64,000 nt of DNA from [Mycobacterium] nativiensis (GTDB lineage Bacteria; Actinomycetota; Actinomycetes; Mycobacteriales; Mycobacteriaceae): positions 3,805,168 to 3,869,167 of the forward strand of contig NZ_CP083986.1 of assembly GCF_020172685.1 (NCBI RefSeq), written 5' to 3'. Position 1 is the first letter of the stretch. The number at the start of each line of letters is the position of its first letter. The notes beneath the pieces are model-generated. The model was given only the letters and a program-made list of their open reading frames with translations. It was not told the origin of the DNA and ran no database searches. A program made the translations under genes and the position numbers. Below, piece by piece: positions 30,227 through 60,537 of this stretch.

Positions 30227-30538
30227 TCAGGTGATGCGCGTACCGGTCCGGTTCCAGCGGATCGGACCCCAGGCCGAGGAATTTCCGAGCGCAGCCGATC
30301 CCACAGCTCCAGCTGCCCCCACGCCGGTTCGGAACGGATCTGTTGATCGTTGGTGAGAAACCGGTTCGGCAGCAGCACCGTCATCAACTGTTCCTCGCGC
30401 CCGTTGAAGAGCCGCACGCCCGACGCTGTGGGGGCATCGTCGCGACCGAAGAAACGATACGGGTAGCGGCCAACCCTGTTCCCTTGCACCATCTTCCGAT
30501 TCGATGATGGCCGGTTTGACGACATCAGCCAGAGTCAT
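30227..30538 (-). pseudogene. decayed copy of the conserved gene found intact at 57021
   Basis: A good AGGTGG site and ATG (30538) open a frame whose residues 6-26 (VVKPAIIESEDG, then GWPLP) match residues 12-33 of the intact paralogue. About 85 internal residues are then missing and the match resumes in another frame (YRFFGRDD ... GVRLFNGREEQ ... NRFLTNDQQ ... WGQLELWDRLR). The last part is spread over two further frames (FLGLGSDPL, then NRTGTRIT-stop). Deletion plus several frameshifts make this a clear pseudogene. It sits immediately upstream of the cobalt-enzyme operon. Confidence 0.85.
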
Positions 30539-36641: not shown

Positions 36642-38609
36642 ATGCAGCAGCTGTACCCGTTTCCTGCCGTCCTCGGCGGCGACCCGGACGCACCGGGCGG
36701 CCTCGACGACATGGCGCTGGCGCTTGTCCTGAGCGCTATCTCCCCCGGTATCGGCGGTGTGCTGATCCGCGGCGAGAAGGGCACCGCGAAATCGACGCTG
36801 GTTCGCGCGCTGGCCCAGGTGCTGCCACCCATCGACGTGGTGTCCGGCGACCGCTTCTCCTCCGATCCCGCTGAGGCGCACCCGCTCTCCCCGGACGGAC
36901 CGTTCCCCGCCGACGCCGACGTCGAGACCCGCCCGGTGCGGCTGGTGGAGCTGCCGGTCGGCGCGACCGAGGACCGTTTGCTCGGCTCGATTCACCTGGA
37001 GCGGGCCCTGGGTGACGGCGTGGTGGAATTCGAGCCCGGGCTGCTGGCCCGCGCCAACCGCGGCATTCTCTACGTTGACGAGGTCAACCTGCTCGCCGAC
37101 CACCTGGTGGACCTGCTGCTGGACGCCGCCGCGATGGGCCGGCTGACGGTGGAGCGCGACTCGGTGTCGGTCACCCACGCCGCACGCTTCGTGATCGTCG
37201 GGACGATGAATCCCGAGGAGGGCGAGCTGCGGCCGCAGTTGCTCGACCGGTTCGGGCTCACGGTCGAGGTTTCCGCGCCGCGCGATCCGGCGTTGCGTGC
37301 CGAGGCGGTGCGACGGCGGCTGGCCTTCGACGCCGACCCCGAGGGTTTCGCCGGGCGCTTTGCCGCGGCCGAGGAGAAGCTGCGGGCCCGGATCCGGCAG
37401 GCGCAGCAACTGCTGCCCCGGGTACTGCTCACCGACACCGCGCTGGTCAAGATCGGTGAGATCTGTGCGGCGTTCGACGTCGACGGTCTGCGCGGCGACA
37501 TCGTCTGTGCCCGTACCGCGGTGGCCCATGCGGCGTGGCAGGGCCGCGACGCGGTCAACGTCGAGGACCTGCGGGTGGCCGCCCGGCTGGCACTGCCGCA
37601 TCGGCGGCGACGCAAGCCGTTCGACGCGCCGGGACTCGACGAGGCCGAACTCGACGAGCTGCTGCCGCCGGAGGATTCCGGCCCCGAGCCCGATCCGGAT
37701 GGTCCCGATGGTCCGGAACCCGACGGTCCCGAGCCGGACGGCGGGAACGCCGCACCGCCTGAGCAGGGGGCACCGGCGCCATCTGGGCCCGGCTCTACCT
37801 CGACGGTGGCCGCCGACTCCCCGTACCGGGCACGGCTTTTCACCGTCGATGGGTTGGGCGCGGGCCGCGCCGGACGACGCAGCCGGGCCCGCACCAGTTC
37901 GGGCCGGCGGATGGGCGCCACCGCGGCGAACTTCGCCGGCGGGCTGCACCTGTTCGAGACGCTGCGGGCCGCCGCACCGCATCAGGGCACACGGGGGCGA
38001 ATCGGCGGCCGAATGATCCTGCGGGCGGACGATCTTCGTCGCGCCGTCCGAGAGGGCCGGGAGGCCAATCTGGTGCTGTTCGTCGTCGACACCTCCGGGT
38101 CGATGGCCGCGGCCGAGCGGATGCGGCACGTCAAGACCGCGATCGCCTCCCTGCTGCTGGACGCCTATCGCCGCCGGGATCGGGTGGCGGTGGTGACGTT
38201 CCGCGGCACGCAGGCGGAGCTGGTGCTGCCGGCGACGGGGTCGGTGGAGATCGCCGCCGTCCGCCTCGACGAGGTGTCCGCGGGCGGCCGCACCCCGCTG
38301 GCCGAGGGCCTGCTCGAAGCCGGCGAGGTGATCCGCCGGGAACGGTTACGCGACCCGGCCTGCCGACCGCTGCTGGTGGTGCTGACCGACGGCCGGGCCA
38401 CCTCCGGCGACGATCCCGTCGGCAGGTCCCACCAGGCCGCGATTCACCTTGCCGACCAGGGATTTTCGGCGGTGGTGGTGGACTGCGAGAACGGCCGGAT
38501 GCGACTCGGGCTGGCGCGCACGCTCGCCGATCGACTACGGGCCGAATACGTCCCGCTGCCGCAGGTGAGCGCCGAGGCGCTCACCGACATCGTGAAGGGA
38601 GCGGCCTGA
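36642..38609 (+). CDS. ChlI/ChlD-type chelatase subunit (putative cobaltochelatase partner of CobN)
   Basis: 655 residues. N-terminal AAA+ ATPase with Walker A GEKGTAKST, Walker B ILYVDEVNLL and the sensor stretch VGTMNPEEGELRPQLLDRF. An acidic Pro/Asp/Gly-rich linker (about 345-385) precedes a C-terminal von Willebrand A domain with the MIDAS motif DTSGSM. This is the fused BchI/BchD form annotated as magnesium chelatase in mycobacteria. With cobN nearby and a cobalamin riboswitch upstream it most likely supplies the ATPase for cobalt insertion in place of CobS/CobT. Overlaps cobO by one base. Confidence 0.9.
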   Translation: MQQLYPFPAVLGGDPDAPGGLDDMALALVLSAISPGIGGVLIRGEKGTAKSTLVRALAQVLPPIDVVSGDRFSSDPAEAHPLSPDGPFPADADVETRPVRLVELPVGATEDRLLGSIHLERALGDGVVEFEPGLLARANRGILYVDEVNLLADHLVDLLLDAAAMGRLTVERDSVSVTHAARFVIVGTMNPEEGELRPQLLDRFGLTVEVSAPRDPALRAEAVRRRLAFDADPEGFAGRFAAAEEKLRARIRQAQQLLPRVLLTDTALVKIGEICAAFDVDGLRGDIVCARTAVAHAAWQGRDAVNVEDLRVAARLALPHRRRRKPFDAPGLDEAELDELLPPEDSGPEPDPDGPDGPEPDGPEPDGGNAAPPEQGAPAPSGPGSTSTVAADSPYRARLFTVDGLGAGRAGRRSRARTSSGRRMGATAANFAGGLHLFETLRAAAPHQGTRGRIGGRMILRADDLRRAVREGREANLVLFVVDTSGSMAAAERMRHVKTAIASLLLDAYRRRDRVAVVTFRGTQAELVLPATGSVEIAAVRLDEVSAGGRTPLAEGLLEAGEVIRRERLRDPACRPLLVVLTDGRATSGDDPVGRSHQAAIHLADQGFSAVVVDCENGRMRLGLARTLADRLRAEYVPLPQVSAEALTDIVKGAA

Positions 38610-39223
38610 TGCCGCAGGGACAGCCGTTGACGGTGCCCGACGACAACCTGACCACGCGTCAGCGGCGTAACCGCCCGCTGCTGATGGTGCACACCGGCGA
38701 CGGCAAGGGGAAGTCCACCGCCGCGTTCGGGATGGCGCTGCGCGGCTGGAGCCAGGGCTTTGACATCGGTGTCTTCCAGTTCGTGAAATCCGCCAAGTGG
38801 CGGGTCGGTGAGCAGACCGTGCTGGAACGCCTTGGCGCCCTGCACGATGACACCGGTGAGGGCGGGCCGGTGCAGTGGCACAAGATGGGTTCGGGGTGGT
38901 CGTGGAGCCGCAAGGCCGGCGGCGTCGAGGATCATGCCGGCGATGCGTTGGCGGGATGGAACGAGATCAAGCGTCGCCTCGCTGAGCAGAGCCACGACCT
39001 GTACGTGCTCGACGAGTTCACCTATCCGATCAACTGGGGCTGGGTGGATGTCGACGACGTCGTTGAGACATTGCGCAACCGGCCCGGGCATCAGCACGTG
39101 GTGATCACCGGCCGTCGCGCCGACCCTCGATTGATCGAGATTGCCGACCTGGTCACCGAGATGACCAAGATCAAGCATCCGATGGACGTCGGCCAGAAGG
39201 GCCAGCGCGGCATTGAGTGGTAA
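38609..39223 (+). CDS. cobO: corrinoid adenosyltransferase
   Basis: 204 residues, CobA/BtuR/CobO family. The P-loop is MVHTGDGKGKSTAAFGMALRG; LDEFTYPINWGW and VVITGRRADPRLIEIADLVTEM are diagnostic. Transfers the 5'-deoxyadenosyl group of ATP to Co(I) of cobyrinic acid a,c-diamide. Second gene of the riboswitch-led operon. Confidence 0.96.
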   Translation: MPQGQPLTVPDDNLTTRQRRNRPLLMVHTGDGKGKSTAAFGMALRGWSQGFDIGVFQFVKSAKWRVGEQTVLERLGALHDDTGEGGPVQWHKMGSGWSWSRKAGGVEDHAGDALAGWNEIKRRLAEQSHDLYVLDEFTYPINWGWVDVDDVVETLRNRPGHQHVVITGRRADPRLIEIADLVTEMTKIKHPMDVGQKGQRGIEW

Positions 39224-48265: not shown

Positions 48266-49008
48266 CAGGGTCGCCGCACCAGCAGAACGTCCATCACCCA
48301 GCCTGCGTCGGCCTTCGCGGCGCGACGGGCAACCGTGATCTCGTCGAGGACATCGGCGACCCGGCCACTGACCAGCCGCTCCCCCGCCGCACCGAGATTG
48401 GCACCCCACCAGATGGTCCACTCGCCCAGCTCGGCTAGGTCGAGCCCCTCCGGGTTGAGCATCGCGACAATGTTGTCCTGGCCGGCGGCAACGGCCTCGC
48501 CCAGCCGGCGCCCGGTGGTGATGTGCACCGGCCGGCCCACCTCGTGCAGCACGATCCGGTGCCGGGCCGCCAGCAGCTGCGGAGCGCTGATGCCGGGCAA
48601 CACGTGGTAATCCAGTTCCACACCAAGGGCTTTCACCTGCTTGACGATGCGGATCGTCGAGTCGTACAGCGCCGGATCACCCCAGACCAGGAATGCGGCG
48701 CTGCCGCCACGGGTCCGCAGCACGTCGGCGTAGCGCTGCGCCCGGGCCGCATGCCAGTCGCCCACCGCCCGCGCATAGTCAGGTCCGGTCAGAGCCGGTG
48801 ACCGGTCGCGGGGTGGATCGGCGATCGTGACGATCGGAGTCGAGGCGGCATAGGTGTCGACGATGGATCGCCGCAACGCCAAAAGGCTGTCGCCGGAAGA
48901 CTTCTCTGATGCCACCACGTAGTCGACCGACCGCAGCGCCTCGGCGACCTCGGGCGTGACGTGCTGCGGCCCCATCCCGACGCCGAGAATCCAAATCTGC
49001 ACACCCAT
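48265..49008 (-). CDS. cobF: precorrin-6A synthase (deacetylating)
   Basis: 247 residues, tetrapyrrole methylase: IWILGVGMGPQHVTPEVAEAL at the N-terminus, AFLVWGDPALYDSTIRIV and PGISAPQLLAARHRIVLHEVG in the core. Adds the C1 methyl with loss of the C2 unit, the aerobic-pathway enzyme. cobF is reported absent from M. tuberculosis but present in M. canettii and environmental mycobacteria. Coupled to both cobN and cobQ by two-base overlaps. Confidence 0.93.
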   Translation of the reverse strand: MGVQIWILGVGMGPQHVTPEVAEALRSVDYVVASEKSSGDSLLALRRSIVDTYAASTPIVTIADPPRDRSPALTGPDYARAVGDWHAARAQRYADVLRTRGGSAAFLVWGDPALYDSTIRIVKQVKALGVELDYHVLPGISAPQLLAARHRIVLHEVGRPVHITTGRRLGEAVAAGQDNIVAMLNPEGLDLAELGEWTIWWGANLGAAGERLVSGRVADVLDEITVARRAAKADAGWVMDVLLVRRP

Positions 49009-52000
49009 CAGCGGTCCTCCAGATCGCCTTCCACGTCCAGGTAGGCCTGCTGCAGCGCCGCCATCGTCTGCGGATCCGGCTGCGCCCACAGGCCCCGGTC
49101 GGCGGCCTCCTTGAGTCGCTCCACGATGCCCTGCAACGCCCACGGGTTGGACTTGTCCAGGAACTCGCGGGTTTCGGGGTCGAGCACGTACTCGGCGGCG
49201 AGCTTCTCGTACATCCAGTCGTGCACCACCCCGGCGGTCGCGTCGAACCCGAACAGGTAGTCGACGGTCGCGGCCAGCTCGAACGCGCCCTTGTAGCCGT
49301 GCCGGCGCATCGCGGAGATCCATCGCGGGTTGACCACCCGGGCCCGGAACACCCGGGCGGTCTCCTCGGCCAGCGTGCGGGTGCGCACAGCGTCCGGCGA
49401 CGTCGAGTCCCCCACGTAGGCCTTCGGATCTGCTCCGGTGAGCGCACGCACGGTCGCGATCATGCCACCGTGGTAGACGAAGTAGTCGTCGGAATCGGCG
49501 ATGTCGTGCTCGCGGGTGTCGATGTTCTTGGCGGCCACCTTGATCCGGCGGTAGTTCGTGCGCATGTCATCGGCTGCGGCGCAACCGTCGAGCCCTCGGC
49601 CGTAGGCGAACCCGCCCCAGGTGGTGTAGACCTCGGCCAGATCCTTGTCGTCGCGCCAGGTGCCGGACTCGATCACCTGCAGGATGCCCGCCCCGTAGGA
49701 GCCGGGCGCCGACCCGAAGACCCGGGTGGTGGCCCGGCGCAGGTCGCCGTGGGCGGCCAGGTCGGCGCGGGCGTGGGCCGCCACGAAGTTCGCCTCGTCG
49801 GGTTCGTCGAGGGTGGCCACCATCTGCACCGCGTCGTCCAGCATCGTCACGACGTGCGGGAAGGCGTCCCGGAAAAACCCCGAGATCCGCACCGTCACAT
49901 CGATTCTCGGGCGGCCGAGTTCCTCAGGTGAGATGACTGCCAGCCCAGACACCCGGCGGGACGCCTCATCCCACTCGGGGCGCACGCCGAGCAGGGCCAG
50001 CACCTCGGCGACGTCATCGCCGGAGGTGCGCATCGCCGAGGTGCCCCACACCGACAACCCCACCGACTCCGGGTAGCCGCCGGTGTCGTCGAGGTAACGC
50101 CGCACCAGGGAGTCCGCCATCGCCTGTCCGGTCTGCCAGGCCAGCCGGGACGGCACCGCGCGCGGGTCGACGGTATAGAAGTTGCGGCCGGTGGGCAGCA
50201 CGTTGACCAGGCCGCGCAGCGGCGATCCGCTCGGCCCCGGCCGCACGAAGCCGCCGGCCAGCGCGTGCAGCACCGAGTCCAGCTCGGCCGTGGTGCCGGC
50301 CAGCCGCGGAACCACCTCGGTGGCAGCGAATCTCAAGACCCGACGCACCTCGGGGTCGGGGTGCAGCGAGTCGGAAACAGCGGCATCCCAGCCCGTCGCC
50401 TCCATGGCTTCGACCAACTCGCGGGCACGGTCCTCGATCTCGTCCACGGCGGCCGCCGGAGCGTCTTCCCTGAGCCCCAACGCGGCCCGCAGCCCGGGCA
50501 CCGCGTGGTCCACCCCGCCCCACACCTGCGGGGCCCGCAGGATCGCCAGCACCAGGTTCACCCGCTCCGGGCCGGCCGGGGCACCGCCGAGCACGTGTAG
50601 GCCGTCGCGGATCTGGGCGTCCTTGATCTCGCAGAGCCAGCCGTCGACGTGCAGCAGAAAGTCGTCGAACTCCTCGTCCTCGGGCCGCTCGTCCAGGCCC
50701 AGATCGCGGTGCATCTCCGCGGCCCGCATCAGGTTCCAGATCTCGCCGCGGATCGCCGGCAGCTTGGCCGGGTCCATCGTCGCGATGTTGCCGTACTCGT
50801 CGAGGAGCTGCTCCAACCGGGCGATGTCGCCGTAGGACTCCGCGCGTGCCATCGGCGGGATCAGGTGATCGACGATGGTGGCGTGCGCCCGTCGTTTCGC
50901 CTGGGCACCCTCGCCGGGATCGTTGACCAGGAACGGGTAGATCAGCGGCAGATCGGCGATCATGGCGTCGGTGGCGCATCCCGCCGACAGCGCCGCGGTC
51001 TTTCCGGGCAGCCATTCCAGCGAGCCGTGCTTACCCAGGTGGATCACCGCGTGCGCACCGAAACCATATGCCAGCCAACGGTATGCGGCCAGATAGTGGT
51101 GGCTCGGCGGCAGCTCCGGGTCATGGTAGATCGCCACCGGGTTCTCCCCGAACCCCCTCGGCGGCTGGATCATCAGCACCACATTGCCGGATCGCAGTGC
51201 GGCCAGCACGATCTCGCCGGCATCGTTGACGAACAGCTTGCCGGGCGCCGGGCCCCACGCCTGCGCCATCGCGTCGCGCAGGTCGTCGGGCAGTTCGGCG
51301 GTCCACTCGGCGTACTGCGGCGCGGTCACCCGCACCTGGGCGCCGGCCAGCTGCGCCGCACTGAGCCAGTCCTCGTCCTGGCCGCCGGCCTCGATCAGGG
51401 TGTGGATCAGCCGATCCCCGGCCTGCGTCTCATCGGCGATGTCCAGCACCCCGAAGCCGTCCCCGACGTCGTAGCCCTCGGCGGCCAGCCGGTGCAGCAG
51501 TCGCACCGCCGAGGCCGGGGTGTCCAGTCCGACGGCATTGCCGACGCGGGAGTGCTTGGTGGGATAGGCCGACAGCACCAGCGCCAGCTTCTTGTCGGCA
51601 TTCGGGATGTGGCGCAGCACCGCGTGATTCACCACCACACCGGCCACCCGGGCGCAGCGTTCCGCGTCGGCGGCGTAGTGCGGCAGCCCGTCGTCGTCGA
51701 TCTCCTTGAAGGAGAACGGCACCGTGATGATCCGGCCGTCGAACTCCGGGATGGCGATCTGGGTGGCCGAGTCCAGCGGGGTCACGCCGTCGTCGTTGGC
51801 CTCCCAGTCCGCCCGTGACGACGCCAGGCACAGCCCCTGAAACACCGGGATGTCCAGCGCGGCAATCCGTTCGATATCCCACGCGCCGTCGTCGTCGCCG
51901 GCGCTGACGGTCGCGGTGGCGTTCATCGCTCCGCCGGCCGCCAGCATGCAGACCACCACCGCGTCCAGCGTGCCCAGCGCGTCGTAGAGCTCGTCGGGGG

Positions 52001-52604
52001 CGTTGCGCAGCGAGGCGGCGAAGATCGGCACCCCGACCGCCCGGCCGGTGGCATCGATCGCATCGGCCAGCACGTGGGCGAATCCCGCGTTGCCACTGAC
52101 CTCGTGGGCCCGGTAGTACAGCACCCCGATTCGCACCGCGCCGGAGGCCTCGACGGGCTCGCTCCGCCTCCCCCGCCGACCCTCCCGCTGGGCGTATCCC
52201 CACTCCGGGATCACCGCCGGTTCCTCGAAACCCTCCCCGGTCAGCAGCACCGTGTCGCACAGGAACGCGTGCAGTTGGGCCAGGTTGGCCGGTCCGCCCT
52301 CGGCGAGATAGGCGTGCGCCTGCGCCGCCAGCCCGATCGGGACCGTCGAGCACTCCATCAACTCGGCGTTGGGTGATCGCTCGCCACCGAGCACCACCAA
52401 CGGCCGGCCGGTCGCACGCAGCAGCGTCAGCTCGTCGGCGATCTCCGCCGACGAGCCCAGGATCCGCAGCACCACCACGTCGGCCCCGTCGAGCAGCGGC
52501 TCGATGTCGTGGCGTGCCGGGTTGCCGAGCCGGTAGGCGGCCCCGCTGGCCCGCGCCGACAGCAGGTCGGTGTCAGAGGTGGAGAGTAAGGCGATACGCC
52601 GCAT
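49008..52604 (-). CDS. cobN: cobaltochelatase subunit CobN
   Basis: 1198 residues, large CobN/ChlH chelatase subunit that binds hydrogenobyrinic a,c-diamide for ATP-driven cobalt insertion. Hallmarks: VLYYRAHEVSGNAGFAHVLADAI, LSAYPTKHSRVGNAVGLDTPASAVRLL, AVIHLGKHGSLEWLPGKTAALS and PTGRNFYTVDPRAVPSRLAW. An Arg-rich stretch (about residues 138-150) lies before the conserved LYYRAH segment and looks like a linker. AGGAGG eight bases upstream of the ATG. First gene of a riboswitch-led cobN-cobF-cobQ-cobK operon. Confidence 0.96.
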   Translation of the reverse strand: MRRIALLSTSDTDLLSARASGAAYRLGNPARHDIEPLLDGADVVVLRILGSSAEIADELTLLRATGRPLVVLGGERSPNAELMECSTVPIGLAAQAHAYLAEGGPANLAQLHAFLCDTVLLTGEGFEEPAVIPEWGYAQREGRRGRRSEPVEASGAVRIGVLYYRAHEVSGNAGFAHVLADAIDATGRAVGVPIFAASLRNAPDELYDALGTLDAVVVCMLAAGGAMNATATVSAGDDDGAWDIERIAALDIPVFQGLCLASSRADWEANDDGVTPLDSATQIAIPEFDGRIITVPFSFKEIDDDGLPHYAADAERCARVAGVVVNHAVLRHIPNADKKLALVLSAYPTKHSRVGNAVGLDTPASAVRLLHRLAAEGYDVGDGFGVLDIADETQAGDRLIHTLIEAGGQDEDWLSAAQLAGAQVRVTAPQYAEWTAELPDDLRDAMAQAWGPAPGKLFVNDAGEIVLAALRSGNVVLMIQPPRGFGENPVAIYHDPELPPSHHYLAAYRWLAYGFGAHAVIHLGKHGSLEWLPGKTAALSAGCATDAMIADLPLIYPFLVNDPGEGAQAKRRAHATIVDHLIPPMARAESYGDIARLEQLLDEYGNIATMDPAKLPAIRGEIWNLMRAAEMHRDLGLDERPEDEEFDDFLLHVDGWLCEIKDAQIRDGLHVLGGAPAGPERVNLVLAILRAPQVWGGVDHAVPGLRAALGLREDAPAAAVDEIEDRARELVEAMEATGWDAAVSDSLHPDPEVRRVLRFAATEVVPRLAGTTAELDSVLHALAGGFVRPGPSGSPLRGLVNVLPTGRNFYTVDPRAVPSRLAWQTGQAMADSLVRRYLDDTGGYPESVGLSVWGTSAMRTSGDDVAEVLALLGVRPEWDEASRRVSGLAVISPEELGRPRIDVTVRISGFFRDAFPHVVTMLDDAVQMVATLDEPDEANFVAAHARADLAAHGDLRRATTRVFGSAPGSYGAGILQVIESGTWRDDKDLAEVYTTWGGFAYGRGLDGCAAADDMRTNYRRIKVAAKNIDTREHDIADSDDYFVYHGGMIATVRALTGADPKAYVGDSTSPDAVRTRTLAEETARVFRARVVNPRWISAMRRHGYKGAFELAATVDYLFGFDATAGVVHDWMYEKLAAEYVLDPETREFLDKSNPWALQGIVERLKEAADRGLWAQPDPQTMAALQQAYLDVEGDLEDR

Positions 52605-52612
52605 AGATCAGA

Positions 52613-52738
52613 CCTCCTGAGGGGTTCGCGCCCCTCGTCGTCGGATGTCCCGTGGCCGTATCTGGCTGACGGGCCGGTGAGGCCCTCACAGTGGCGGAAC
52701 CGCCCCGGATTTCCACCGGGTTCCTGACGCCACGAGAC
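52613..52738 (-). promoter_or_regulatory. cobalamin riboswitch controlling cobN
   Basis: Reads leftwards. P1 pairs bases 52729-52738 with 52647-52656 (10 bp). The core has GGTGGAAATCCGG followed by CCGCCACTGTG, and the B12 box GTCAGCCAGATACGG is at about 52657-52674. Downstream, a GAGGGG/CCCCTC hairpin (52619-52636) abuts the cobN AGGAGG site (52613-52618), a plausible expression platform controlling ribosome access. Confidence 0.93.
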
Positions 52739-52785
52739 GGCGGCCAGCCTAACCCAGTGGGCCGTGCAAGAATGGCGCCGGTAAG

Positions 52786-52937
52786 GCGATGACGACACAG
52801 TGAGGAAGCCGGTGAGAGTCCGGCGCGGTCCCGCCACTGTCATCGGGGAGTGACCCTCATCAGCCACGGCCCGCAACCTGTGGGGCTGGAAGGCGAGGCG
52901 AGCAGTGATCCGAAAGCCAGGAGACTCACGTCATCGC
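52786..52937 (+). promoter_or_regulatory. cobalamin riboswitch controlling the B12 importer operon
   Basis: P1 pairs GCGATGACG (52786-52794) with CGTCATCGC (52929-52937), a perfect 9-bp stem. The core has GAGGAAGCCGGTG followed by AGAGTCCGGC, then CCCGCCACTGTC, and the B12 box AGCCAGGAGACTCACG at 52915-52930. A CGGGG/CCCCG hairpin (52949-52965) follows, then GAGGAAG and the ATG at 52985. It is divergent from the cobN riboswitch, 47 bases between their 5' ends. Confidence 0.95.
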
Positions 52938-52984
52938 GTCCTGCGAACCGGGGCGGTGTACCCCGAGGAAGCTGATGCACGCCC

Positions 52985-54151
52985 ATGTCCCGTGCGCCGC
53001 GGGTAGTTCTCGCGCTGGTGATTGCGCTGGCCACATCGCTGGCCGGCTGCTCAGCCGAGCGCGCCCCCCGCTCCCCCGACGCGCGGCCCGGCTGCATCAC
53101 CGACTTCGATGCGGCCGCCGACTACTTCCCGGACAAATCGACACTGTCCGAGGCCACCAACTTCCGTCTCTCCTACCACCGCAGCTACCAGGTCCTGACG
53201 GTTGAGCGGCCCTATCTCGGCGGCAAGCCGGTGTCGTATGTGTTGGTGCGCTGCGGTGCGCCGGCCCCGGAGCTGCCCGGCGAGTTGGCCCACGCCCAGC
53301 AGATCACGGTCCCGGTGCGCAGCCTGTATTCGGGCTCGACGACACATCTGGCGATGATCACCGAACTCGAGGCGGCCGACGTGGTCACCGGTGTGGCCAG
53401 CCCGGCCGCGGTCGCCGACCCGCAGATCCGCCACCGCATCGACAGCGGTGCGATCGTCGGCTATGCGCCGGGCGGGCAGCTCAACATCGAGACCGTGCTG
53501 CGCGCCGGCCCCGACGTGCTGATCACCCAGGGGATGGACGACCCGGGCTACCCCAAGCTGCGCGACGCCGGAATCCCGGTGGTCGCCGACGCCGAATGGC
53601 TGGAGCCCACCCCGCTGGGCCGCGCCGAATGGATCAAAGCGTTTGCGGCGCTGACCGGGACCGAACGCCAAGCCGCGCAGGCGTACCGGGCCATCCGCGA
53701 CCGCTACCGGGAACTGGCCGCTCGGGCCGCGTCGGCCAAGCCCGTCGACGTGCTGGTCGGCACCATGTATTCGGGCAGCTGGTCCATGCCCACCAGCACC
53801 AGTTATGCCGGCCGGCTGATCGCTGACGCCGGCGGCGCCTACCCCTGGCTGACCGACGGCGGCGCCGAGAACCGGCAGCTGAACTTCGAGTCGGTCTACG
53901 CCCGCGCCGGAAGCGCACCGCTGTGGCTGGTCACCGACGACTGGAAAACCGTGGGCGACGCCGTATCCCAGGACAGCCGGTACGGCGAGCTCACCGCCGT
54001 CCGCAACGGCCAGGTGTGGTCGGCGGGCAACACCTACTGGGAGCGCGGCACGGCACGACCGGATCTGCTGCTCGGCGACCTGGTCGCGATCCTGCATCCC
54101 GAGCTGGCCCCGGGACACGAATTCGAGTTCTACCGTCAGGTGCCGCGATGA
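52985..54151 (+). CDS. btuF: cobalamin/corrinoid ABC transporter substrate-binding lipoprotein
   Basis: 388 residues with a lipoprotein signal peptide and lipobox LAGC (Cys about residue 22). Class III periplasmic-binding fold: SLYSGSTTHLAMITELEAADVVTGV, LNIETVLRAGPDVLITQGM, GIPVVADAEWLEPTPLGRAEWIKAFAALTG. The family covers Fe(III)-siderophore and B12 binders; the cobalamin riboswitch just upstream argues for corrinoid. First of a four-gene operon; overlaps the permease gene by four bases. Confidence 0.85.
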   Translation: MSRAPRVVLALVIALATSLAGCSAERAPRSPDARPGCITDFDAAADYFPDKSTLSEATNFRLSYHRSYQVLTVERPYLGGKPVSYVLVRCGAPAPELPGELAHAQQITVPVRSLYSGSTTHLAMITELEAADVVTGVASPAAVADPQIRHRIDSGAIVGYAPGGQLNIETVLRAGPDVLITQGMDDPGYPKLRDAGIPVVADAEWLEPTPLGRAEWIKAFAALTGTERQAAQAYRAIRDRYRELAARAASAKPVDVLVGTMYSGSWSMPTSTSYAGRLIADAGGAYPWLTDGGAENRQLNFESVYARAGSAPLWLVTDDWKTVGDAVSQDSRYGELTAVRNGQVWSAGNTYWERGTARPDLLLGDLVAILHPELAPGHEFEFYRQVPR

Positions 54152-55188
54152 AGGCGCGCACCACGCTGGTGCTGGCCGGGCTGGCCGTCACGGTCCTGGT
54201 GCTGGCCGTGCTGGGTCTGGCGCTCGGCCCGGTGCGGGTCCCGCTGGCCGACACCGTGCGGGTGCTGTTCGGCGCCGAGGCCTCCGATCCGCGCTGGCAG
54301 GTGATCGTGACGAACATGCGGTTGCCGCGGGTGCTCACCGCGCTGGCAGCCGGGGCCGCGCTCGGGGTCGCCGGTCTGCAGCTGCAGACGTTGTTCCGCA
54401 ACACCCTGGCCGACCCGTACATCCTCGGGGTCAGTTCCGGCGCCAGCCTCGGCGTGGCGCTGGTGGTGCTGCTCGGCGGTGCGGCGGGCGCCGGATTCAG
54501 CACCGGCATGGCCGGAGCCGGCCGCGCCGGCGCGGTCGTCGCGGCGGCGCTGGGCGCCGCGGCGATGCTGACGCTGGTTCTGACGCTGTCCCGCTGGACC
54601 CGTTCGGCGGCGACGCTGCTGCTGATCGGGGTGATGATCGGCGCGGCCAGCACCGCCCTGGTGAGCCTGGCGATGGTCTACGCAGACCCGCAGCGGGTGC
54701 AGCAGTTCCTGCTGTGGGGGCTGGGCAGCTTCGCCGGAACCGGCTGGGGCGATCTGCGGTTGCTGCTGCCGCTGGTGGCAGTCGGGCTGGCTGCCGCGGC
54801 ATTGACGATCCGGCCGCTCAACGCCCTGCTGCTCGGCGAGAGTTACGCGGCCACAATGGGTATCAACGTCCGGCGGGCCCGGGTGATCACGGTCGGCTCG
54901 GCATCGCTGCTGGCGGGTGTGACGACCGCGTTCTGCGGGCCGATCGCCTTCATCGGGCTGGTGGTGCCGCACGTGGCCCGCATCGCCGTGGGCACCTCCG
55001 ATCACCGGGTGGTGGTGCCCGCGGTGACATTGCTGGGCGCCCTCGCCGCGCTGGCGTGCGGCATCGTCAGCCAGGTACCGGGCAGCGACCTGGTCATTCC
55101 GATCAACGCCGTCACCGCGCTGGTGGGAGCCCCGGTCGTGATCACGGTGCTGCTGCGGGCCCGTCGCGGATCGGGGATCCCGTCATGA
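54148..55188 (+). CDS. btuC: FecCD/BtuC-type ABC permease
   Basis: 346 residues, about ten membrane helices. FecCD signatures: RLPRVLTALAAGAALGVAGLQLQTLFRNTLADPYILGVSSGASLG, MGINVRRARV (the ATPase-contacting loop) and FCGPIAFIGLVVPHVARIAVG. Forms the translocation pore with the fused ATPase encoded next. The stop overlaps the ATPase ATG (ATGA). Confidence 0.9.
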   Translation: MKARTTLVLAGLAVTVLVLAVLGLALGPVRVPLADTVRVLFGAEASDPRWQVIVTNMRLPRVLTALAAGAALGVAGLQLQTLFRNTLADPYILGVSSGASLGVALVVLLGGAAGAGFSTGMAGAGRAGAVVAAALGAAAMLTLVLTLSRWTRSAATLLLIGVMIGAASTALVSLAMVYADPQRVQQFLLWGLGSFAGTGWGDLRLLLPLVAVGLAAAALTIRPLNALLLGESYAATMGINVRRARVITVGSASLLAGVTTAFCGPIAFIGLVVPHVARIAVGTSDHRVVVPAVTLLGALAALACGIVSQVPGSDLVIPINAVTALVGAPVVITVLLRARRGSGIPS

Positions 55189-55274
55189 CCCCGGCGGTTC
55201 AGCGAGACGCGACGAAGGAGAGGCGAAGCTGGGTCCGCCGCATGGATCCGGCAGTCATGACGCCGGCGGTTCAG
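55182..55274 (+). repeat. 72-bp in-frame insertion/duplication at the start of the ATPase gene
   Basis: A 21-base direct repeat with one mismatch occurs at 55182-55202 and 55254-55274, each containing the ATG of MTPAVQ. Between them lies 51 bp, most of which resembles the hairpin element at 57601-57649 (55192-55241 aligns to it at roughly 44 of 51 positions). The insertion is in frame and adds 24 residues to the N-terminus. Confidence 0.8.
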
Positions 55275-57008
55275 CTGGCCGGCCTGGCGATCGGCTACCG
55301 CCACCGGCGGCGCGCCACCACCGTGGCCACCGGGCTCAATGCGCAGGCCCGCCGCGGCGAGCTGACCGTGCTGATCGGCCCCAACGGCGCCGGCAAGTCC
55401 ACCCTGATCCGCACCCTGGCCGGGCTGCAGCCGTCGCTCGGCGGCCAGGTGCTGCTGGACGGCACCGACCTGACCGGGCTGCCCCGCGACGAACTGGCCC
55501 GCCGGGTGGCGGTGGTGCTGACCGAGCGGATCGACCCGGGCCTGCTGTCGGCACGGGAACTGGTGGGGTTGGGCCGCATTCCGCACCTGGGCCTGGGCGC
55601 CCGGTTGCGCCCCGCCGACGAGGAGATCGTGGACTGGGCGCTGGCTGCCACCGGCGCGCAGCACCTGGCGTCGCGGCCGGCCGCGGAGCTCTCCGACGGT
55701 GAATGTCAGCGGGTCCTGACCGCACGCGCCCTGGCCCAGCGGCCGGGCCTGCTGGTGCTCGACGAGCCGACCGCGTTCCTCGACGTGTCCTCGCGGGCCG
55801 GGCTGTTCGGGCTGCTGCGCAAGCTGGCCCGCGACCAGCAGCTGGCGGTGGTGCTCAGCACCCACGATCTGGAATTGGCGTTGCGGGTGGCCGACCGGGT
55901 GTGGCTGCTGGATCCGGCGGGCACGCTCGTCGACACCGTCGGTGAGGAGCTGATGCTCTCGGGACGCATCGGTGCGATGTTCGACACCGACACCCTGCGC
56001 TTCGACCCGGCCAGCGGCATGTTCGCATTCGGCACCGAGGACGGCGGGGGCCGGTGTGCCCGCATCGAGGCCCCCGAACCGTTGCGTGCCGCGCTGATCC
56101 GGGTGCTGTCGCGGGAGGGCTGGGACACCGGCGGGCTCCCAGAACGCCCCGAAATCGTGGTCACCGCAACCGACCTCAACGCGATCACGGTGCGCTCCGC
56201 CACGTCCACCACGATCAGCGCGTTGCGGGACCTGCCGCAGCTGCTGCGCACCCTGCCCGCCGAACCGCGCCGCCGCGCGCCCCAGGATCAGGTGCTCTCC
56301 GCGCTGGCCGAGTTGTCCGATGTCAGTGCGTATTTCGCGGTGTCCACCGGGCCACTGCCGGACGGCGACTGGCGTCCGGTGGCGCAGCTCTACACCGACC
56401 AGACGCTGCTCGCCGGCGCGATCGCAGGCGTGGGCGAGCGCATCGGGACCCCGGATCGCCGGGTTGCGGCGTCCACGTTCCACCTCGGGTTCGCCGCCCG
56501 GCTGTGGTCGATCGGGCTGGGCGGGCTCGCCGAGCACGGGCTGCTGATGGACCTGTCGCCCGATCAGCTCTGGTACTGCGAATCCGGTGGCACCGTCCGG
56601 CTGCACCTGCCGAACCCGGTGGCCTGGCACCGCTCATCGACCGACAATCCGGAATCCCTGCTCGCCGACGAGATCCTGGACGGCCACCTGACCCCGTTGA
56701 CCGCTGCCGTCCGGCGGCTCGGACCGATCTCGGAGAGGCTGCTGCACGGCAATGCTGCCTCCGCCGTTCTCGGTGCCGCCCGCGCACTGAGTCGGCATCG
56801 CGGTGAACAACTGGCCACCGCACCGGGCTGGGACCTGGCCCGCACCTTATGCGCAGACGAACGCCTCACCGACACAATATGTTTCAACGACGTCGGCACC
56901 GATTACCGCCGGAACAGCTGCTGCCTGTTCTACCGCACCCCCGGCGCCGGGTTGTGCGGTGACTGCGCACTGACCCACCAGCCCCAGGTCCGTCAGGACC
57001 GAAACTAG
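55185..57008 (+). CDS. ABC transporter ATPase fused to a FhuF-like [2Fe-2S] reductase domain
   Basis: 607 residues. ABC domain (about 28-265): Walker A GPNGAGKST (65-73), signature LSDGECQR in place of LSGGQ, Walker B LLVLDEPTAF, H-loop STHD. The C-terminal half (about 290-607) ends in a Cys pair (579, 580), ten residues, then C591 and C594 (CC-x10-C-x2-C), the [2Fe-2S] signature of FhuF-type ferric-siderophore reductases. The operon's cobalamin riboswitch suggests it couples corrinoid import to reduction. ATG 55185 overlaps the permease stop; ATG 55257 is the likely ancestral start copy. Confidence 0.87.
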   Translation: MTPAVQRDATKERRSWVRRMDPAVMTPAVQLAGLAIGYRHRRRATTVATGLNAQARRGELTVLIGPNGAGKSTLIRTLAGLQPSLGGQVLLDGTDLTGLPRDELARRVAVVLTERIDPGLLSARELVGLGRIPHLGLGARLRPADEEIVDWALAATGAQHLASRPAAELSDGECQRVLTARALAQRPGLLVLDEPTAFLDVSSRAGLFGLLRKLARDQQLAVVLSTHDLELALRVADRVWLLDPAGTLVDTVGEELMLSGRIGAMFDTDTLRFDPASGMFAFGTEDGGGRCARIEAPEPLRAALIRVLSREGWDTGGLPERPEIVVTATDLNAITVRSATSTTISALRDLPQLLRTLPAEPRRRAPQDQVLSALAELSDVSAYFAVSTGPLPDGDWRPVAQLYTDQTLLAGAIAGVGERIGTPDRRVAASTFHLGFAARLWSIGLGGLAEHGLLMDLSPDQLWYCESGGTVRLHLPNPVAWHRSSTDNPESLLADEILDGHLTPLTAAVRRLGPISERLLHGNAASAVLGAARALSRHRGEQLATAPGWDLARTLCADERLTDTICFNDVGTDYRRNSCCLFYRTPGAGLCGDCALTHQPQVRQDRN

Positions 57009-57020
57009 GAAGGGATCAAC

Positions 57021-57611
57021 ATGACCGAGAACACCATCGCTGAGACTGGAACCGTTGTCGCCGATCCCCCGATCGTCGACACCGAAGACCGTGGCCGTGA
57101 ACAACTGTGGCCGTTGCCCACCGATCAGCAGAGCCTGCTGGACCTGCTGCACCTGTGCTTCGACGAGTACTGGGACGAGATCTGGTTCGGCATCATCATG
57201 CAGGGTGCCGCCTGGGAGGTGGCAGCGCCCAACGCCCCGCGCAAGATCTCGATGCTCGACGGCTATGCCACGGTCGACTTCGGCCGCTGGCACTTCCACC
57301 TGTGCATCGGCAAGCACCGCGCCAGCGGCTCCGAGCTGGGCCGGATCCGCCGCTGCACCCGCGCCGAGCTGTACCGCCGGATCGGCAAGGACGGCAACGC
57401 GCAGTCCTGGGGCGTGCGGCTCTACAACGGGCGCGACGAGCAGATGATGACGGTGATGCTGCCGAACCCGTTCCTCACCAACGACCAGCAGATGCGCGAG
57501 GAGCCCGAGTGGGGCCAGCTCGAGTTGTGGGACAAGCTCCGCGACAAGTACCTGGGACTGGGACCGGACCCGGTGGACCGCAACGGGAATCGGATTCGCT
57601 GCGGCGGTTAG
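57021..57611 (+). CDS. conserved protein of unknown function, last gene of the B12 importer operon
   Basis: 196 residues, soluble, no signal peptide or membrane segment. Conserved-looking stretches are REQLWPLPTDQQ, FDEYWDEIWFGIIMQGAAWEV, DFGRWHFHLCIGKHR, WGVRLYNGRDEQMMTVMLPNPFLTNDQQ and WGQLELWDKLRDKYLGLGPDP. It carries His and Cys residues that could bind metal (HFHLC). I do not recognise the family. Twelve bases after the ATPase-FhuF gene with an AAGGGA site. A decayed paralogue lies beside the cobalt-type SCNase operon (30227-30538), hinting at a cobalt-linked role. Confidence 0.9.
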   Translation: MTENTIAETGTVVADPPIVDTEDRGREQLWPLPTDQQSLLDLLHLCFDEYWDEIWFGIIMQGAAWEVAAPNAPRKISMLDGYATVDFGRWHFHLCIGKHRASGSELGRIRRCTRAELYRRIGKDGNAQSWGVRLYNGRDEQMMTVMLPNPFLTNDQQMREEPEWGQLELWDKLRDKYLGLGPDPVDRNGNRIRCGG

Positions 57612-57649
57612 CGAGGCTCGACGAAGGAGAGCCGAAGCTGGACCGCCGC
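57601..57649 (+). repeat. hairpin repeat element, second copy, over the stop codon
   Basis: Imperfect palindrome: left arm 57601-57619 (GCGGCGGTTAGC then GAGGCTC), nine-base loop GACGAAGGA, right arm 57629-57649 (GAGCCGAAGC then ACCGCCGC). It begins eight bases before the stop TAG of the preceding gene. The related copy is inside the ATPase gene at 55192-55241. May also serve as a terminator for the importer operon. Confidence 0.65.
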
Positions 57650-57685
57650 ATCAGCCCCGGCGGCTGACTCGGGCCCCGCCCGGGC

Positions 57686-58333
57686 CTAGGACTGGCCAGT
57701 GCGGTCGACCGCGATTCCTGCGAGCAGGCGCTCCAGCGCCGCCAGCGCATCCCGGCTTTCGCGGCGCGGGTCGGCGGACCGGGCGACGGTCATCGCGGCT
57801 TCACACATCGCTCCGTGAATAAGGTGCGCGAGCGGTTCCACCCGCTGCGGCGCGAGGCGACCCTCGCCGATCGCCGTGGACAGCCCCTGGCGCAACAGGG
57901 ACGTGACGTGTTCGTCTTCGAGGTCACGCATCGCCTCCCAGCCCAGCACCGCCGGAGCATCGATCAAGGTGATGCGCTGCACGCCCGGATCCAGCACGGC
58001 GTCGAAGAATCCCCGGCAGCCGCGCACGAAGTTCTGCCAGCTGTCACCGCCACCGCGGGCGGTCCGCAACACCGCGTGGCCGATGGCGCGCTGCTCGTCC
58101 TCGTAGACCGCGGCGAACAGTGCGCGCTTGCTGGAGAAATGGTGGTACAGCGCGCCCTTGGTCATCCCGGCGCGCTCAACGACGACATCGAGGGAGGTGG
58201 CGTCGAAGCCGTCAGCGGCAAAAGCCTTCCGCGCCACCGCCAGGATCTGTTCGGTGGTGAGGCGGGTGCGTTCTGCTTGGGTACGCGGGCCGGGCACGTA
58301 GACCAGCATACGCGATCCATACTTGTGGTACAT
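57686..58333 (-). CDS. TetR-family transcriptional regulator
   Basis: 215 residues from ATG 58333, or 207 from ATG 58309. Helix-turn-helix FDATSLDVVVERAGMTKGALYHHFSSKRALFAAVYEDE is typical; the C-terminal domain resembles the TetR_C class with HLIHGAMCEAAM. Divergent from the molybdopterin oxidoreductase; a near-perfect palindrome lies exactly between the two genes, so it is the probable repressor of that operon and of itself. Confidence 0.9.
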   Translation of the reverse strand: MYHKYGSRMLVYVPGPRTQAERTRLTTEQILAVARKAFAADGFDATSLDVVVERAGMTKGALYHHFSSKRALFAAVYEDEQRAIGHAVLRTARGGGDSWQNFVRGCRGFFDAVLDPGVQRITLIDAPAVLGWEAMRDLEDEHVTSLLRQGLSTAIGEGRLAPQRVEPLAHLIHGAMCEAAMTVARSADPRRESRDALAALERLLAGIAVDRTGQS

Positions 58334-58362
58334 ACCCTCAGTATGTTAGTACTGGGGGTATG
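58331..58362. promoter_or_regulatory. palindromic operator spanning both divergent start codons
   Basis: Arms CATACCCTCAGTA (58331-58343) and TACTGGGGGTATG (58350-58362) are inverted repeats with one mismatch, six bases apart. The right-hand ATG is the start codon of the oxidoreductase and the left arm begins with the reverse complement of the first regulator ATG. A TetR dimer here would block both genes; mRNAs would be leaderless. Confidence 0.78.
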
Positions 58363-60537
58363 CAAGTTCGTCGTCACGTCTGCACGCTCTGCGAGGCCGG
58401 CTGCGGATTGCTGAGCGAGGTGGACGGTGACGAAGTCGTCTCCACTCGCGGCAACCCGGACCACGTGTCTAGTCGCGGACACATCTGCCCAAAAGCCCTC
58501 GCGCTCAGGGAATTACACGCCGATCCCGATCGGGTGCGCACGCCGCTGATCCGCTCCGCCGACGGAGAGTTGCGGCCCGCCTCCTGGGACCAGGCGTTCG
58601 AGGAGATCGACGCGCGACTGACCGCGGTCCTGGATCGACACGGGCCCGATGCGGTGGCGTTGTATCTCGGCAACCCGGTGGCGCACGACTTCGCCACGAC
58701 GCTGTACAGCAGTGCGACGATGCGAGCGTTGGGATCCCACAACATCTACACCGCCAACACCGTCGACGCGATGCCGAAGTTCGCGGCCTGCCAACTCATG
58801 TTCGGTGGCATGTACACGGTGCCCCTGCCCGACCTCGACCGCTGCTCACATGTGCTGATCCTGGGCGCTAACCCGCTGGTATCGAACGGCAGCCTGCTCA
58901 CCGCACCGGGGATGCGGGCACGACTGCGGGCGCTACGGCGCCGCGGGGGGCGGCTGATCGTCGTCGACCCCAACCGAAGCCAGACCGCCCGCGAGGCCGA
59001 TGAGCATCACGCCATCCGCCCGGGCGCCGACGCCCTGCTGCTGCTCGCGTTGGTGCATGCACTGTTCAGCGAGAACAACGTCAACCTTGGCCGGCTGGGC
59101 CCACACGTCCGCGGCGTCGAGACCATCGAGGGGCTGGCCGGCGACTTCTCCCCCGAAGCCGTTGCGCCCCACTGCGACATCGCTGCGGCTGACATTCGCC
59201 GGTTGGCCCGCGAGCTGGCTGCCGCACCAACCGCGGCCGTGTACGGCCGCACCGGCACCTGCACCCAGCGGTTCGGGACCGTGACCAGCTGGCTGATCGA
59301 GGTGCTCAACGTACTCACCGGAAACCTGGACCGGCCGGGCGGCGCCATGTTCGCCCGGCCAGCGGCCGATCTGCGGGCGATGACCGCGCAACGCGCCGTC
59401 GCGTTCGGGCGCTGGCACAGCCGGGTTCGCGGCGCACCGGAAACCCTGGGCGAACTGCCGCTGGCCTGCCTGGCCGAGGAGATCGACACCCCCGGGGACG
59501 GGCAGGTGAAGGCGCTGATCACCGTAGCCGGCAATCCCGCGCGCTCGGCGCCCAACAGCGCTCGGCTCACGGCGGCATTCGACCAGCTCGAGCTGATGGT
59601 CGGCATGGACCTGTACCGCAATGAAACGACACGCCACGCCCATGTGCTGTTACCGGCTCCCTCACCGCTGACCAAGCCGCACTACGACCTGTTCTTCCAC
59701 CATTTCGCGATCCGCAACACTGCCACCTACGCACCGCCGGTGCTGCCCCCTGCCCCCGACGTCACACCGGAATGGCAGATCCTGCTTCGGTTGATCGGAA
59801 TCGTCACGCGGCAGGGCGCCACCGCCGACCTGGCCGCCATCGACGACATGGTCGCCGAATCGCTGGCACGAACGCTGGGCGGCGACAGGCAAGCAGGGGG
59901 CCTGCGCGGCCCCAAGCGTCTTCTCGACTTGCTGTTGCGGGCCGGGCCGTACGGCGACACCGAGCCCCTGACGCTGGCCCGGGTGCGTGCGCACCCCGAT
60001 GGGGTCGATTTCGGCCCGCTGCACCCGCAGCTGCCAGGCCTGCTCAACACACCGTCGGGCCAGATCGAACTCGCCCCGCAACCGCTGGTCGACGACGTCG
60101 CCGAACTACGCATCCGTCTGCTGACGCCGCCGAAGGACACCATGGTGCTGATCGGGCGACGCCACCTGCGGTCCAACAACTCCTGGATGCACAACCTGCC
60201 CACGCTGGCCAAGGGGCCCGAGCGCTGCACGCTGTTGGTCAATCCCGCCGATGCCGCACGCCTGCGGCTGGGGACTCGCGCCCGGGTGACCTCACGCGCC
60301 GGCGTGGTCGACGCGTCGGTGGAGGTGACCGACGCGGTCCGTCCCGGGGTGGTGTCACTGCCGCATGGCTGGGGCCATGACGAACCCGACACGGCGCTCG
60401 GTGTCGCTGCGCGACGGCCCGGCGTCAACAGCAACGTCCTGGCCGACGGTGTCGAGCTGGATCCGCTGTCGGGCACCGCGGTGCTCAACGGCATACCGGT
60501 GCAGGTCACCGCCAGTCCCGAGGAGAGTTCGCTATGA
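58360..60537 (+). CDS. molybdopterin-dependent oxidoreductase with N-terminal [4Fe-4S] site
   Basis: 725 residues, DMSO-reductase/formate-dehydrogenase superfamily. [4Fe-4S] cysteines at C8, C11, C15 and C43 (Cys-x2-Cys-x3-Cys-x27-Cys). The dinucleotide-binding segments are visible in CSHVLILGANPLVSNGSLLTAPG and DPNRSQTAREADEHHAIRPGADALLLLALVHALF. The predicted Mo-site region reads YTANTVDAMPKFAACQLMFGG, with no Sec. C-terminal GRRHLRSNNSWMHNLP and DAVRPGVVSLPHGWGHDEPD match the aldehyde/formate-type tail. No partner subunit is encoded, so the electron acceptor is unknown. Overlaps the next gene by four bases. Confidence 0.87.
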   Translation: MQVRRHVCTLCEAGCGLLSEVDGDEVVSTRGNPDHVSSRGHICPKALALRELHADPDRVRTPLIRSADGELRPASWDQAFEEIDARLTAVLDRHGPDAVALYLGNPVAHDFATTLYSSATMRALGSHNIYTANTVDAMPKFAACQLMFGGMYTVPLPDLDRCSHVLILGANPLVSNGSLLTAPGMRARLRALRRRGGRLIVVDPNRSQTAREADEHHAIRPGADALLLLALVHALFSENNVNLGRLGPHVRGVETIEGLAGDFSPEAVAPHCDIAAADIRRLARELAAAPTAAVYGRTGTCTQRFGTVTSWLIEVLNVLTGNLDRPGGAMFARPAADLRAMTAQRAVAFGRWHSRVRGAPETLGELPLACLAEEIDTPGDGQVKALITVAGNPARSAPNSARLTAAFDQLELMVGMDLYRNETTRHAHVLLPAPSPLTKPHYDLFFHHFAIRNTATYAPPVLPPAPDVTPEWQILLRLIGIVTRQGATADLAAIDDMVAESLARTLGGDRQAGGLRGPKRLLDLLLRAGPYGDTEPLTLARVRAHPDGVDFGPLHPQLPGLLNTPSGQIELAPQPLVDDVAELRIRLLTPPKDTMVLIGRRHLRSNNSWMHNLPTLAKGPERCTLLVNPADAARLRLGTRARVTSRAGVVDASVEVTDAVRPGVVSLPHGWGHDEPDTALGVAARRPGVNSNVLADGVELDPLSGTAVLNGIPVQVTASPEESSL

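Follow-up and report, generated by a model that had tools for sequence, protein, structure and literature searches.

A four-gene operon headed by a cobalamin riboswitch, contained within 64,000 nucleotides of the [Mycobacterium] nativiensis genome (contig NZ_CP083986.1, positions 3,805,168 to 3,869,167; hereafter the window), appears to encode a BtuFCD-like importer equipped with a previously undescribed module that would receive and reduce its cargo. The genes, which overlap or almost abut one another, specify a substrate-binding lipoprotein, a FecCD permease, an ATP-binding cassette (ABC) ATPase fused to a FhuF-type [2Fe-2S] domain, and a protein of the DUF7676 family (Table 1). We rate at slightly better than even the chance that the system is an ABC importer of a corrinoid (B12 or a precursor), with a cytoplasmic receive-and-reduce module. 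The riboswitch, the lipoprotein-permease-ATPase architecture and the CC-x10-C-x2-C signature at the ATPase C-terminus had been described in a first-pass annotation of the window, and were all recovered by family models (RF00174, just upstream of position 52985; PF01497, PF01032 and PF00005; PF11575). The annotation gave no account of the DUF7676 gene, the most telling one of the operon.

Cobalamin riboswitches at DUF7676 loci

A set of 55 DUF7676 loci was assembled from the window, 8 loci on genome contigs, 9 on plasmids, 8 from the mycobacterial family, 16 from Cyanobacteria and 13 from Alphaproteobacteria. In 48 of them, spread over three phyla, a cobalamin riboswitch heads the operon: in 8/8 of the genome-contig set (L007-L011, L013, L014, L019), 8/9 plasmid, 13/16 cyanobacterial and 10/13 alphaproteobacterial loci (one partial, at a contig end). 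L149, lying on the same contig as L009, was counted once with it; L020 and L027, which showed no riboswitch at the operon head in shorter stretches with too little upstream DNA, were counted as L211 and L210, both with a riboswitch. Plasmid records and genomes may partly overlap in this count and, because the loci are akin, the counts are not independent.

FhuF-domain matches were found in 42 of 121 mycobacterial-family genomes, for a total of 48. The surrounding stretches were taken for 38 of them, omitting the window's own match, two secondary ones and seven of the weakest, and 32 of these stretches were tested for riboswitches, L134-L139 remaining outside. In all of these stretches that also carry DUF7676 (9/9) the riboswitch is located upstream, on the same strand; about 0.1 riboswitch-upstream loci would be expected by chance among the 32, by our own estimate, with up to 9 riboswitch matches per genome. 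The same holds for 7/7 genome-contig loci carrying a FhuF of the window type, where the riboswitch lies just before the binding-protein gene. These comprise two Mycolicibacter loci, one Dietzia and one Microtetraspora locus, all with the fused protein, and three Streptomyces loci (L011, L013, L014), with FhuF as a gene of its own; they were drawn from 80 loci in a scan by ATPase words, mostly ordinary ATPases. The first-pass annotation had named riboswitch-free homologues as an argument against its reading: loci where FhuF is linked to DUF7676 contradict that argument, but those devoid of DUF7676, discussed below, indicate that FhuF as such does not mark B12.

DUF7676 is the constant part of these operons

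DUF7676 is the constant part of these operons, while its partners vary. Within the mycobacterial family, FhuF is encoded immediately upstream of it in 22 of 23 genomes, fused to the ATPase in 14 and as a separate gene in 8, L247 being the exception; two of the 23 (G977, G911) have partial or split DUF7676 matches. All 16 cyanobacterial loci contain a TonB receptor gene upstream of DUF7676, and in all of them DUF7676 bears a C-terminal extension matching the thioredoxin-like ferredoxin extension found in Brasilonema. One such cyanobacterial protein is labelled by NCBI as (2Fe-2S) ferredoxin domain-containing, and the Pfam match of the extension falls just under the cut-off in the two cases tested (22.8 and 20.3 vs 24.8). 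The Brasilonema locus (L019) contains, in order, a riboswitch, a TonB receptor, DUF7676-ferredoxin, binding protein, permease, ATPase, a second riboswitch, DUF1636 and a methionine-synthase-like gene (metE), the latter identified by reading its translation. DUF7676 has thus gained a [2Fe-2S] partner by two unrelated routes: FhuF lies next to it in the family genomes, whereas in Cyanobacteria it is itself fused to a thioredoxin-like ferredoxin. That a one-electron donor was brought in twice suggests that electrons are delivered to whatever DUF7676 holds.

Nine plasmids were read, of 14 records with a DUF7676 match. In seven of them, of proteobacterial or cyanobacterial origin, a TonB receptor is followed by DUF7676 and, in six, by transporter genes, none being seen in Methylocella; no ATPase gene is listed for Acaryochloris, and a hypothetical protein takes the binding-protein position in Paracoccus. 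A Streptomyces plasmid (L148) carries FhuF and DUF7676 only, with no riboswitch at the operon head. The 13 alphaproteobacterial loci come from 12 genomes, and in 10 of the loci a TonB receptor upstream is accompanied by a binding-protein match within the stretch, which in L225 lies before the receptor. When five TonB receptors were compared with NCBIfam models, TonB-B12 scored best in four, below its equivalog cut-off, and TonB-hemin led by 0.5 bits in the fifth.

The structure predicted for the window DUF7676 protein, with a predicted local distance difference test score (pLDDT) of 90.2, matches haem-carrier folds of the HemS/ChuX type far above all else (Foldseek ranks 1-26, VIA ranks 1-15). 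A HemS/ChuX/HutX fold is accordingly predicted for the family. The haem-chaperone families PF05171 and PF06228 gave no match to the window protein at E values up to 1. Residues H91, H93, C95, R110, R119, W130, N136 and seven more are identical in 39/39 aligned DUF7676 sequences from three phyla. A second, broken DUF7676 copy is also present in the window (30286-30459, minus strand), some 27 kb away from the complete one; it scores 62.6 bits over model positions 107-164, and its frames disagree.

The FhuF domain and its fusion to the ATPase

Sequence comparison confirms the FhuF domain and shows that it is conserved. The motif CCLFYRTPGAGLCGDC is matched exactly, with C555, C556, C567 and C570 as putative cluster ligands, and the FhuF_C model exceeds its cut-off of 20.5 bits; the larger FhuF model PF06276, listed for some relatives, is suggestive here, under its cut-off (21.9 vs 25.2 bits). 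Comparison of E. coli K-12 FhuF with the FhuF-domain alignment by hhalign gave a probability of 94.6 (E 7e-8), and a CGDC ending is shared; the FhuF entry 7qp5 matches the window domain weakly (E 0.0055). Apart from the fused ATPase, nothing in the host genome matches the FhuF-domain profile.

A search for other ABC-ATPase/FhuF fusions, as proposed by the first-pass annotation, returned 121 proteins, 120 of which are listed. As only proteins of 0.55-1.75 times the query length were admitted, the search favours fusions and says nothing on the fused share of all FhuF proteins. The cysteine motif is present in 118 of the listed homologues, Walker A in 110 and both in 109, the remaining 11 being without one of the two; the fusion is therefore no assembly accident. 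A spacing of 10 between cysteines is kept in 94 rows of an alignment of 95 (a subset of the 120 chosen by us, window protein included), the sole exception being a truncated protein. Close relatives of the fused ATPase are found in Mycolicibacter, and the Walker A, LSDGE, Walker B and H-loop residues are invariant in a 25-row alignment.

The fused protein was modelled with a pLDDT of 91.4 and a predicted template modelling score of 0.72, which indicates a confident chain with uncertain domain placement; strands and helices are seen in the accessory region that connects the two domains. The Brasilonema ATPase, which lacks FhuF, shows 47% identity (blastp) and remains similar up to window residue 283, i.e. 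into this region. A fold search with the whole chain returned ABC ATPases throughout, and is uninformative for the FhuF part.

FhuF is also found alone under a cobalamin riboswitch, in L159 (57.4 bits) and, with a FhuF of a divergent subtype, in L129 (53.6 bits). The divergent subfamily, marked by CCHWYAAPDGR(Y/F)CSWC, is located under cobalamin riboswitches in L127-L129, and directly after DUF7676 in Dietzia (L009, 8036-9109). In a further mycobacterial locus, L164, a riboswitch, binding protein, permease, ATPase and FhuF lie in a row. In L126 (6001-8152, minus strand) a riboswitch of 33.0 bits, a gene for the cobalt transporter CbtA and FhuF are arranged in a row, hinting at a role of FhuF in cobalt handling.

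Proposed mechanism

In the proposed mechanism, the lipoprotein would capture the corrinoid, and permease and ATPase would move it across the inner membrane. Cytoplasmic DUF7676 would receive the emerging Co(III) corrinoid, and the ATPase-borne FhuF [2Fe-2S] domain would donate one electron, reducing Co(III) to Co(II) with loss of the upper ligand, cyanide or water; DUF7676 would then pass the product on to an adenosyltransferase, CobO for example. In Cyanobacteria, the thioredoxin-like [2Fe-2S] domain fused to DUF7676 would take the place of FhuF. When B12 is plentiful, expression of the operon would be expected to fall, via the riboswitch.

Haem ABC importers are served by cytoplasmic haem carriers. 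A potential of -0.36 V is enough for the Co(III)/Co(II) step and ligand loss, not for reduction of free Co(II) to Co(I), and adenosyltransferases make Co(I) accessible. In humans, CblC/MMACHC does a job to which that of the proposed DUF7676/[2Fe-2S] module is likened. For E. coli FhuF, -0.36 V at pH 7.4 is the value given in PMC8068687, and BtuM offers a precedent for an import protein that chemically changes B12, according to PMC6072759.

We infer strongly that a corrinoid is the imported substrate; moderate confidence is attached to DUF7676 as its carrier and, separately, to corrinoid reduction with ligand removal. The occurrence of DUF7676 kin in B12-controlled import operons of three phyla suggests that B12 is reduced and passed on during entry. 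More specifically, DUF7676 might be the corrinoid counterpart of HemS, an importer-docked cytoplasmic B12 carrier acting with a [2Fe-2S] donor, either FhuF or the thioredoxin-like ferredoxin, that removes the upper ligand and reduces the cobalt as the corrinoid enters; to this proposal we give somewhat less than an even chance.

Contrary evidence and alternative explanations

Several observations weigh against corrinoid import with reduction. No riboswitch above cut-off was detected in 7 of the 55 DUF7676 loci, some of them at contig ends. Among 23 family loci with FhuF and no DUF7676, a same-strand riboswitch lies no more than 5 kb upstream in only 8 (L126-L130, L133, L159, L164); in L131 it is 5.2 kb away and 14 have none there, three of these (L125, L132, L166) showing one on the other strand or downstream. 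Several such FhuF genes adjoin genes with no B12 link, e.g. recA or a peroxidase. When DUF7676 and HemS-type sequences were compared profile to profile, no convincing signal emerged; in one comparison the HemS half-to-half positive control failed too, so that this one speaks neither for nor against homology. All three transporter subunits fall below the NCBIfam equivalog cut-offs: the binding protein for BtuF (10.9 vs 234 bits), the permease for BtuC, its best model (189 vs 334), and the ATPase for BtuD (105 vs 281). DUF7676 is uncommon, being found in 2/296 Actinomycetota, 23/401 family, 16/194 cyanobacterial and 12/289 alphaproteobacterial genomes; the Actinomycetota-wide count was too sparse to use, and was followed by the other three. 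Finally, fusion of a [2Fe-2S] domain to DUF7676 is seen in 0/13 alphaproteobacterial loci, and among four proteobacterial plasmid loci an adjacent [2Fe-2S] candidate is found only in Azospirillum (DUF1636), so the partner is not universal.

Two generalisations were rejected on these data: FhuF as a general B12 marker, contradicted by the loci without DUF7676, and a constant [2Fe-2S] neighbour of DUF7676, contradicted by the alphaproteobacterial loci. In a FhuF tree the riboswitch and DUF7676 classes are mixed, with several class changes, and branches are long, including that of E. coli FhuF. The B12-importer reading put forward in the first-pass annotation gains strong comparative support, from the riboswitches of DUF7676 loci and the TonB receptors of Gram-negative versions.

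The [2Fe-2S] domain might instead sense redox state or iron and gate the transporter ATPase, with no chemistry on the cargo, but this is unlikely. A sensor would be in keeping with the fusion to the ATPase seen in 14 of 22 family genomes with FhuF beside DUF7676, and with the accessory region interposed between the two domains; it would not be in keeping with the encoding of the domain by a separate gene in the other 8, as in the three Streptomyces loci, nor with its occurrence alone under riboswitches in L159 and L129. Moreover, E. coli FhuF binds its siderophore substrate and is regarded as the enzyme that reduces it (PMC8068687). The same source gives ferric siderophore as the known substrate of FhuF, which favours an importer of ferric siderophores or haem with a co-opted B12 riboswitch, where FhuF would reduce iron and DUF7676 bind haem. 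The predicted haem-carrier fold of DUF7676 agrees with this, as do the top Foldseek match of the ATPase, to the haem importer ATPase 4g1u (tied in E-value with the cobalt transporter ATPase CbiO), and two operons with FhuF of another subtype and modest riboswitches (L130 and L133, 34.3 and 40.2 bits). We nevertheless regard an iron or haem importer as quite unlikely: DUF7676 operons of three phyla share this class of riboswitch at their head; cobN adjoins the window operon, and a second riboswitch, DUF1636 and the gene read as metE adjoin the Brasilonema one; TonB-B12 is the best model for four of five receptors, TonB-hemin prevailing by half a bit in the other; and ChuX_HutX coexists with DUF7676 in two (G642, G639) of the five DUF7676 genomes among 96 searched.

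Some HemS-family proteins degrade haem, and the module could similarly dismantle corrinoids, or reduce cobalt chelates, to recover cobalt. Haem-degrading ChuS is present, by entry titles, among the structures sharing the DUF7676-type fold, and one riboswitch-led operon pairs CbtA with FhuF (L126). This is highly improbable in our view, given that the window organism holds a de novo B12 cluster, that an intact corrin ring is costlier than its cobalt, and that nine annotated regions list no radical-SAM or oxygenase gene between those for receptor and transporter.

Import of a corrinoid with its reduction on entry would bear on a poorly known matter, i.e. how bacteria reduce, decyanate and pass on imported corrinoids. 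In a 2025 review on M. tuberculosis cobamides, decyanation and outer-membrane passage are marked as not determined (PMC12713380). DUF7676 is an uncharacterised and uncommon family spanning three phyla, with a predicted tetrapyrrole-carrier fold, two kinds of [2Fe-2S] partner and a location mostly within B12-controlled import operons; a cross-phylum family thereby gains a testable role. If the proposal is true, the system would represent a bacterial import-coupled corrinoid reductase together with a trafficking chaperone, and FhuF-type chemistry would be extended beyond iron. Within an open literature library, subscription papers and preprints being outside the scope, nothing was found on DUF7676 or on FhuF in corrinoid import, nor, in titles, abstract openings and selected passages, any link of FhuF to corrinoids.

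Operon anatomy and genomic setting

A single contig of the 5.28 Mb genome contains the whole window. One operon combines Peripla_BP_2, FecCD and ABC_tran subunits; judged by its domains, the importer would work like BtuFCD, yet by equivalog cut-offs it is not assignable to the E. coli BtuFCD family. B12 biosynthesis genes are located nearby (cobN, cobK, a tetrapyrrole methylase, cobD, a CobB-like protein and cobO).

Table 1. Features of the import operon and of its surroundings, in window coordinates.
Feature	Position	Strand	Evidence
Cobalamin riboswitch RF00174, head of import operon	52776-52946	+	89.4 bits vs gathering score 31.5
Substrate-binding lipoprotein, BtuF/FecB type	52985-54151	+	Peripla_BP_2 PF01497, 90.2 bits; lipobox LAGC read by eye
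FecCD/BtuC-type permease	54148-55188	+	FecCD PF01032, 251.5 bits
ABC ATPase domain, residues 1-245	55257-55991	+	ABC_tran PF00005, 95.3 bits; open frame extends back to 55185
ATPase C-terminal accessory region, ~residues 246-335	55992-56261	+	blastp and model; boundaries approximate
FhuF-type [2Fe-2S] domain, ~residues 336-583	56262-57008	+	FhuF_C PF11575, 33.8 bits
Cysteine motif C-C-x10-C-x2-C	56919-56966	+	read in sequence
DUF7676, HemS/ChuX-like predicted fold	57021-57611	+	PF24724, 237.5 bits
Divergent cobalamin riboswitch RF00174, leads cobN	52637-52749	-	39.8 bits
cobN, neighbouring biosynthesis gene	49008-52604	-	PF02514, 1285 bits
cobO, corrinoid adenosyltransferase	38609-39223	+	PF02572, 199.6 bits

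A short similar sequence, cgacgaaggagag...gaagctgg...ccgccgcat, was noticed by eye at 55188-55260, where the ATPase gene starts, and again at 57611-57665, after DUF7676; because of this repetition the ATPase start codon is uncertain (55185, 55242 or 55257).

PPE-family genes led by cobalamin-type riboswitches are located beside the operon in 4/4 Mycolicibacter-type loci (own genome, L150, L007, L008), with two tandem riboswitch-PPE units in three of the four loci; L007 has one riboswitch of the RF01482 type. In the host genome the PPE riboswitches (G000:C1:3872035-3872228 and 3874995-3875134, minus strand) lie 3-6 kb past the window end, and a TetR regulator and a molybdopterin oxidoreductase (PF00384) are interposed (window 57686-60537), unlike in the other three loci, where a PPE gene directly follows DUF7676. 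The PPE proteins could provide an outer-membrane corrinoid channel, replacing BtuB. A third cobalamin riboswitch outside the window precedes metE (G000:C1:1342610-1342811, minus strand).

Comparison with known systems

The system resembles BtuB-BtuFCD in its binding protein, FecCD permease, ABC ATPase and cobalamin riboswitch, and in the TonB receptor of its Gram-negative versions; it differs in the addition of cytoplasmic DUF7676 and of the [2Fe-2S] module, and in having three parts below the BtuFCD equivalog cut-offs. A mycobacterial BtuFCD-like operon is likewise formed by the M. smegmatis btuFCD homologues MSMEG_4558-4560, noted as of unproven function in PMC8088520, from whose main text the word FhuF is absent. 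E. coli FhuF shares the C-C-x10-C-x2-C domain, homologous by hhalign, whereas the window domain is fused to a transporter ATPase and placed under a B12 riboswitch. BtuM, a decyanating B12 transporter, similarly alters B12 chemically, but is described in PMC6072759 as a membrane protein with a cysteine ligand, while a soluble carrier and a [2Fe-2S] donor are proposed here. With HemS, ChuX, HutX and PhuS, DUF7676 shares its predicted fold; it differs from them in the absence of a sequence-family match, in its own invariant HxHxC motif, in its control by a B12 riboswitch and in being fused to, or encoded beside, [2Fe-2S] proteins. The proposed module would parallel haem import, with its receptor, ABC importer and cytoplasmic carrier.

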